Positions 1-45,524 of a stretch of 64,000 nt of DNA are shown piece by piece. Within the stretch, counting starts at the first letter, position 1, and every line of letters begins with the position of its first letter. The notes under the pieces were generated by a model, which was not told where the DNA came from, did not search any database, and saw only the letters and a program-made list of their open reading frames with translations. Origin of the DNA: Lachnospiraceae bacterium. Its GTDB lineage: Bacteria; Bacillota; Clostridia; Lachnospirales; Lachnospiraceae. The stretch lies in NCBI GenBank assembly GCA_024693135.1, contig JAILLN010000065.1, positions 1-64,000 on the forward strand. The letters run 5' to 3'. The position numbers and the translations under genes are program-made.

Positions 1-560
1 GAGCTTCCCGCCGGCTTCGACTATGCAATCTCGGCTATGTGAGCCAACGATAAAGCGTGTTGTCTCACATGGCAGCCGATCTTGCAAGTCTACGCAGGCG
101 GCAATCTCCGCGTGTTCGCGGAAAGAGGCTCCTTAGGAAACACCAAGGCCCGCAGTCGGCTCACTCTTCGCAGAATATATGGAAGCAAGCGAAGGCTGTT
201 TCAAACATATAATATCCCTCATGTACTATGCTTCTTTTATTCGTTTCGCTGGTTGTGCCTGATAATCCATGTGATGCCAAAGGGAACACGGCTCCGCTTT
301 TCAGCTCAGAAAATGCAGTGTGGAAGGGGAGCCGGGAAAAAGGAACTCTGCAAGGCCCTAATGCCGGTATTTCTATGCGAGACCGAGACGCATAAATTTC
401 GCGAGTGCGAAGGCCGGGCTTGTGCCTCACGAATATCCGCCTTACGAAAACTTATTTTGGCGCAAGACCGGAACAGCGCCGAGCGAAATTTTGTCATGCG
501 GCGACGGGCGAGGTTAGAAACGACCGAGCGCCGGCAGAGTTCCTTTTTTCGGCGACCCCA
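1..560 (+). repeat. Dispersed non-coding element, copy 1 (domain A ~1-173, divergent linker ~174-325, domain B ~326-560); continues past the left window edge
   Basis: Reverse-complement match to 44690-45297. Positions 1-140 differ from copy 2 at about 2 sites. Domain B (~352-533) aligns without gaps, with a core at ~472-532 that is nearly identical. All reading frames look similarly conserved, which fits nucleotide-level rather than protein conservation. Confidence 0.85.
331..553 (+). ncRNA. Candidate structured RNA domain B, copy 1, closed by a long terminal stem (331-351 with 534-553)
   Basis: AAAAAGGAACTCTGC (337-351) is the exact reverse complement of GCAGAGTTCCTTTTT (534-548), extended by GCCG/CGGC. 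Copy 2 keeps the stem through three compensatory pair changes. Internal hairpins: TATGCG/CGCATA, TTCGC-GAGT-GCGAA, GGCGC/GCGCC. Confidence 0.6.
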
Positions 561-611
561 GGCGGACACCTGCACTTCAATCAACCAACCGTCCCCCTGT
601 CTGCAGACAGT

Positions 612-44639: not shown

Positions 44640-44702
44640 CTATTTGGTCGTTTTGGGTCGCTGTGACAAGTAACAAAGGGCTATGTGGTCGTTTTGGGTC
44701 GC
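44640..44702. repeat. Imperfect 22-bp direct repeat, spacing 41 bp, at the domain-B boundary of copy 2
   Basis: CTATTTGGTCGTTTTGGGTCGC (44640-44661) and CTATGTGGTCGTTTTGGGTCGC (44681-44702). Confidence 0.9.
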
Positions 44703-45297
44703 CGAAAAAATGATATCTGCCAGGCGCTCGGTCGTTTCTAAGCTCGCCCGTCGCCTCATGACAAAATTTCGCTCGGCGCTGTTCTGGTCTTGCGCCCGGC
44801 CGTTTTTTCGCAAAGCAGCAGGCTGTGCGGCGCAAGCCCAGCCTTCGCACTCGCGAAATTTATGAGCCTCGGGCTCGCATAGAAATACCGGCATTAGAGC
44901 CTCTGCAGATATCATTTTTCTCGGCTCCCCCTCCGCGCTGTGCCTGCACAGACGAACCGCTGACCTAAATCGCACTATGTATTTGCACGGGCAAGGCTTG
45001 CGTTCTGGCTGTCCCCTGAGCCGCTACATAGATCTTCAGGCTCAGCCTGCGCAACGAATGGTTAAAGGGTAAGCCGCGAAAACGCCCTGCTGTTCATGGA
45101 AGCCCCTTCCGTGTTCTCATTGGTACTGCGAAGCGTGAGCCGCCAAGGGCCTTGACGTTTCCTAAGGAGCCTCTTACCGCGAACACGCGGAGATTGCCGC
45201 CTGCGTAGACTTGCAAGATCGGCTGCCATGTGAGACAACACGCTTTATCGTTGGCTCACATAGCCGAGATTGCATAGTCGAAGCCAGCGGGAAGCTC
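44690..45297 (-). repeat. Dispersed non-coding element, copy 2 (inverted relative to copy 1)
   Basis: Reverse complement of 1-~560: domain A' 45126-45297, linker ~44930-45125, domain B' ~44690-44930. Confidence 0.85.
44701..44925 (-). ncRNA. Candidate structured RNA domain B, copy 2
   Basis: Minus strand GCCGAGAAAAATGATATCTGC ... GCAGATATCATTTTTTCGGC closing stem; covaries with copy 1. Confidence 0.6.
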
Positions 45298-45335
45298 CGC
45301 ATTAAGTGAGCGGTGAGGCGACGTGGAAATGCAAG

Positions 45336-45447
45336 GCCCGCCGGCAGCGTAACCCCGCACCCCCGCGGTCCGCCGGCGGCGTAACCCCACACCACCGCAG
45401 TCCGCCGGCGGCGTAACCCCACACCACCGCAGGCCCGCCGGCAGCGA
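45336..45447. repeat. GC-rich tandem repeat, exact 32-bp period, ~3.5 copies
   Basis: (G)YCCGCCGGCRGCGTAACCCCRCACCMCCGCR at 45336, 45368, 45400 and a partial from ~45433. Confidence 0.95.
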
Positions 45448-45524
45448 TCAAGACAAAAGAACCGTCCCCCTGTCTTCGTCTATTATATTAGATTGACAAT
45501 AATTTGACAAGGATTTGACAAAAA

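Follow-up and report, generated by a model that had tools for sequence, protein, structure and literature searches.

A large palindromic intergenic repeat of the Lachnospiraceae with likenesses to REP elements

The repeat that occupies the first bases of the sequence above, called domain A here, looks like a member of an uncatalogued class of mobile palindromic repeats of unusual size. Our reading, to which we give somewhat better than an even chance, is that domain A is the core of palindromic mobile DNA elements, ~180-290 nt long, which occur throughout the family Lachnospiraceae and are comparable to oversized REP/REPINs. In the scheme that we put forward, the element in its single-stranded state, on the lagging strand or upon excision, would fold into one long hairpin, and a trans-acting HUH/Y1 transposase, most likely of the RAYT class (REP-associated transposases), would recognise the folded DNA via its conserved mismatched core. 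The transposase would cleave at a GGAC tag at the foot of the hairpin, and the hairpin would insert into intergenic DNA. We infer that single-stranded DNA is the functional form of A. Abundant gut bacteria would thereby gain a further class of REP-like mobile DNA, large and elaborate in structure, whose tag and core are open to biochemical testing.

The window, that is, the whole stretch of 64,000 nucleotides that was analysed, is the start of one contig (C42) of a 3.19-Mb assembly of 67 contigs that is 88% complete (G000). Copy 1 of domain A lies at 1..160 on the forward strand and consists of the 3' three quarters of a giant hairpin; as window base 1 is also the first base of the contig, the 51 nt that should precede it are cut off. 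Copy 2, at 45138..45348 on the reverse strand, is full-length, internal to the contig and genuine. The first-pass annotation had matched positions 1-140 to the reverse complement of 45297-45158 with about two differences, and there are exactly two mismatches, at positions 12 and 122. It had also described this block as far more conserved than the adjoining linker, as is borne out by the mean pairwise identity among 13 copies, which amounts to 0.89-0.97 in 1-140 and 0.86 in 141-173 vs 0.65-0.72 in the linker (174-310), the values in domain B being 0.73-0.87. On the other hand, the limits (1-173) and the two-hairpin fold that it had assigned to the domain were wrong, since the 5' quarter of A is missing from the window: the true start lies 51 nt further 5' (GCCGCCnGCGGGCCTTGCATTTCCACGTCGCCTCACCGCTCACTTAATGCG) and the end near position 160, and the length in this genome is ~210 nt.

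In the genome of the window, domain A is present at ~40 distinct sites, some of them at contig ends, among 58 BLAST matches that also take in domain B. These sites are intergenic, bar one under a long open reading frame (L058) which is taken as spurious. A is there part of a composite element, whose order is a REP sequence (AGACAGGGGGACGGTTCTTTTGTCT), an array of 1-7 repeats of the 5' arm of A, A itself, a linker, domain B and sometimes an inverted REP. Of 31 copies, 16 have the leading REP (AGACAGGGGGACGG...) on the 5' side of the array, and within the 64-kb window it is found twice only, each time at a composite end. In copy 2, the 5' REP AGACAGGGGGACGGTTCTTTTGTCT lies at 45451..45475 (reverse strand) and is followed by an array of ~32-34-bp units (GCCGCCGGCGG...GGGGTTAC) at 45349..45446 (reverse strand). 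In copy 1, the poorly conserved linker occupies 161..330 (forward strand), and an inverted REP-like end (AACCGTCCCCCTGTCT, the reverse of AGACAGGGGGACGGTT) closes the composite at 579..602 on the reverse strand. Just after it, a gene for an EAL-domain protein extends over 612-2528 (PF00563, E 1e-53). Domain B is a second giant hairpin with the ends GCCGGGAAAAAGGAACTCTGC/GCAGAGTTCCTTTTTTCGGC, placed at 331..553 (forward strand) in copy 1 and at 44696..44940 (reverse strand) in copy 2. The window copies of B and those of loci L031-L048 form a family of giant-hairpin repeats of the genus that is distinct from A and whose outer stems are private to each copy in one related genome (G016) too (for example GGGCTGTTGAAACTG.../...CGGTTGAAACAGCCC). 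The occurrence of A without B, raised as a question by the first-pass annotation, is real: the copies in three other genomes (G001, G004 and G030) are A alone.

The folding of 24 copies by RNAalifold results in one giant imperfect hairpin of 73 pairs that takes in the whole of A. Eleven of these pairs are doubly compensated, with up to 10 of the 24 copies altered on both sides, and a single copy has a folding energy of -124.4 kcal/mol (z = -9.8); like the number of sites, this goes beyond chance. The stem formed by TCGGCT-ATGTGAG and CTCACAT-ggc-AGCCGA (31..79, forward strand; arms 31-43/64-79), which had been proposed as a hairpin of its own, is real and covaries, its pairs being kept while both sides are altered in 7-10 of the 24 copies; in the full domain it is the tip of the single hairpin. 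The second hairpin that had been drawn, the GC hairpin at 107..122 (forward strand), is nearly invariant and can still be drawn, but it competes with better-supported long-range pairings, namely GAG(1-3) with CTC(106-108), which covaries across genera, and the pairing of the segment to the 5' arm that is absent from the window.

The conserved core covers 1..108 (forward strand), as defined by the 24 own-genome copies and by 55 copies from many genera. It is built from GAG(1-3)/CTC(106-108), CCGCC(8-12)/GGCGG(97-101), an internal loop CTTCG/CTACG and GACT(19-22)/AGTC(87-90), and the internal-loop mismatches TnC/TnC and GGAT are retained across genera. In A3 the core fold is found again, with 15 of 25 pairs doubly compensated. 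Over the 55 copies, 91% of the cells are paired, and several pairs use three or four pair types (for example GC38/AT6/TA5/CG5). Such counts are biased toward the structure, because some of the 55 copies had gone into the broader covariance model (R2) to which the alignment was fitted. Despite this bias, the changes at single pairs can be seen in the sequences themselves.

The spread of the element was followed with covariance models. A model made from the copies of the window's genome (R1) led to a related genome (G025, E = 2e-7), and BLAST with the nine strongest related sites of that genome brought up more members of the genus. With R2, the core of A was found in 16 of 48 genus genomes and in 20 of 397 family genomes, the internal loops being kept and the stems covarying; when more candidates were scored, the matches per genome were 23 in G148, 30 in G439, 14 in G344 and 10 in G410. 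When 84,980 species genomes were scanned with a pattern, at least 120 stretches were returned, and among those listed the titles are solely Lachnospiraceae or Clostridia (Dorea, Blautia schinkii, Acetatifactor, Eubacterium, Lachnotalea). The same scan of viral contigs gave no A stretch, the searches of phage and plasmid records gave no match to A, and Rfam gave none for A or B, either at the gathering cut-off or at E up to 0.5-1. None of the catalogued RNA families, phages and plasmids that were searched contains A as a piece. Other repeats were seen as well. A third family stands beside one A copy (L090:1688-1776, with matches in G016, G045, G009 and G013) and occurs several times as closely spaced inverted pairs; another repeat, of ~145 bp (L258:1447-1606), is present more than 30 times in G148, most copies sharing 87-100% identity.

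The comparison of two sister species bears upon mobility. Contig C7 of G439 is syntenic with positions 1260421-1277004 of G148, and one ~240-bp element of G439 is absent from the orthologous G148 site. On the left, the two flanks are nearly identical as far as the junction, on the right they become so beyond a diverged stretch, and the flanking G148 sequence at this empty site is devoid of the stem. Of two further G439 elements, one is shared with G148, though its apical hairpin differs, and the other is missing from G148 at the point where right-hand synteny ends. No clear target duplications were seen. In our reading the difference at the empty site would be a gain of the element, though a loss may also explain it. 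The suggestion of the first-pass annotation, that the identity of the block reflects recent mobility, gene conversion or strong functional constraint, was right in direction, since A is multi-copy, intergenic, present or absent between sister species and folded alike across genera; the invariance within one genome from which it was drawn cannot, however, separate mobility from constraint.

Most copies in four genomes (G148, G439, G073 and G410) carry, beyond the core, a near-perfect outer stem of 18-45 bp which is different in each copy. In other genomes, that of the window included, the outer stem is common to the copies. A first set, which comprises 46 distinct stems and 1419 bp, has mismatches at 77 positions: 18 G.T, 21 A.C and 38 of other types. 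The pattern scan supplied a second set, and its 62 stems contain 58 G.T and 44 A.C mismatches. GGAC immediately precedes the outer stem on its 5' side in most of the 46 stems of the first set and in 29 of the 62 of the second, where TG usually comes after the 3' arm whenever GGAC precedes the stem. The stems of the first set do not look like diverged homologues of one another, as the similarity between loci (0.436) barely exceeds the value for shuffled stems (0.423). Nor do the 22 G148 stems that were searched look like captures from the chromosome, no third occurrence of them being found in 1.2 Mb of G148. At orthologous sites in sister species, the stem is identical or nearly so (L190/L271, L261/L272, L265/L275). 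The presence of a private stem in nearly every examined copy of G148 and G439, the lack of a third copy and the absence of the stem from one empty site lead us to suggest, tentatively and at well below even confidence, that each insertion of an A-family element gives rise, at the site or close to it, to a fresh inverted repeat of 18-45 bp that is near-perfect and private to the copy. If this were true, the element would make a unique palindrome at each site by an undescribed copying mechanism.

Could the structure of A be selected as RNA? The covariation with conserved asymmetric internal loops and the position of some copies right after a stop codon (L141/L142) would suit a structured non-coding RNA gene or element, for instance protein-binding or decay-controlling, that has been multiplied intergenically. 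If a structural RNA were at work, departures of the G.U type should outnumber those of the A.C type on one strand. However, G.T mismatches are not in significant excess over A.C mismatches in either set of outer stems (18/21; 58/44), the pair table of the core, counted by eye, likewise shows no significant G.U-type excess, the genes around the A copies of the window's genome are unbiased in orientation (upstream reading frame toward/away 17/12, downstream 8/9), and A is absent from Rfam. We regard the RNA explanation as unlikely. The lack of a significant G.T excess and the missing orientation bias favour folded DNA, and a structure at the DNA level is thus the likelier one; the unbiased gene orientation in this genome also speaks against a cis-regulatory untranslated region. 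Repeats such as A, which break assemblies, can mislead covariation-based discovery of non-coding RNAs, since compensatory changes also arise in DNA hairpins.

Template switching can also yield covariation in DNA palindromes. The compensatory changes would then result from the correction of quasi-palindromes, and A would be an old repeat without current function, its arms homogenised by mutation. The near-perfect outer stems without wobble bias and the four matched changes within 14 bp between two related G439 copies are consistent with this mechanism, yet correction would erase the TnC/TnC and GGAT loop mismatches that persist across genera, and in orthologous copies the stem stays the same, or almost so, from one species to the other. 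The retained mismatches argue for selection over template switching, which appears distinctly improbable as the whole explanation. Finally, the near-identity of A in the window's genome might stem mainly from gene conversion or from assembly collapse at the repeat rather than from recent movement. Indeed, the assembly breaks inside domain A at the ends of contigs C11, C31, C33, C34, C35, C41, C42 and C65-C67, and several contigs start or stop in identical 97-103-base pieces of A, which are probably shared assembly nodes, so that the identity between contig-end copies is partly an assembly artefact. Against this, ~25 copies that are complete and have flanks of their own are distinguishable from each other at structured, covarying positions, and we consider it very unlikely that conversion or collapse is the main cause.

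For the mobile palindromic DNA that we favour, the candidate enzyme is suggested by the tag. In the 36 kb that surround 15 RAYT-type genes at 10 loci, the motif GGGGACGG was counted 39 times, as against 0 in 78 kb around 26 IS200-type loci and 8 at A loci, a distribution that ties the GGAC tag to RAYTs. Hairpins with GGGGACGG stand beside the RAYT genes of the family, often as inverted doublets and in several cases directly after the RAYT stop codon; Lachnospiraceae RAYT genes with such adjoining hairpins were seen at L240, L242, L244, L245, L249, L250 and L252. The long RAYT-type genes belong with NCBIfam REP_Tyr_transpos (NF047646), for which 2 of 7 score above the cut-off. Y1 transposases are present in 34 of 50 examined genomes, and none of either kind was found in the 88% complete genome of the window. 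In a hand-picked set, RAYT-like genes occur in ~10 of 28 A-positive vs ~5 of 22 A-negative genomes, and this co-occurrence supports neither RAYT presence as a predictor of A nor a RAYT as its mobiliser. With no clear enrichment of RAYTs where A is present, a RAYT stays the putative mobilising enzyme of A.

A number of known systems share some of these traits. The core words of integron attC sites, judged by eye, do not fit A. The TwoAYGGAY RNA (RF01731) has a long closing helix, as A has, but A itself fails to match its model; this RNA adjoins an A element at L174:1160-1324 and L343:3359-3523, probably one locus in two records, and did not recur at the other A loci scanned. MITEs and foldback elements are likewise non-autonomous, built on inverted repeats and present in high copy, whereas the conservation of A sits in its inner core and the mismatches of that core, not in terminal sequences. 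The BOX repeats of Streptococcus are modular (boxA-boxB-boxC) and, like A, intergenic composites with a variable number of internal units; their host group, size and core differ, a distinction made here by description.

The closest likeness is with REP/REPIN (BIME) elements mobilised by RAYT (TnpA-REP). REPs measure 21-65 nt and have a foot tetranucleotide that is read by TnpA-REP, no REP being found for Y1 subclass 2.1 (PMC6006769), and GTAG and CGTC classes have been described in a text that does not name the Firmicutes (PMC3733652); a full-text search for GGGGGACGGTTC returned nothing among open-access papers. At 180-290 nt, A is several times longer than this range (PMC6006769), its tag is GGAC where REP/REPINs have GTAG/GTGG, absent in A, and it differs by its elaborate conserved internal loops and by private outer stems that REP models leave unexplained. 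Nevertheless, A is likewise intergenic, multi-copy and palindromic, with a tetranucleotide at the hairpin foot, and in relatives within the Lachnospiraceae the RAYT genes have short flanking repeats with the GGGGACGG tag that is also seen at A loci.
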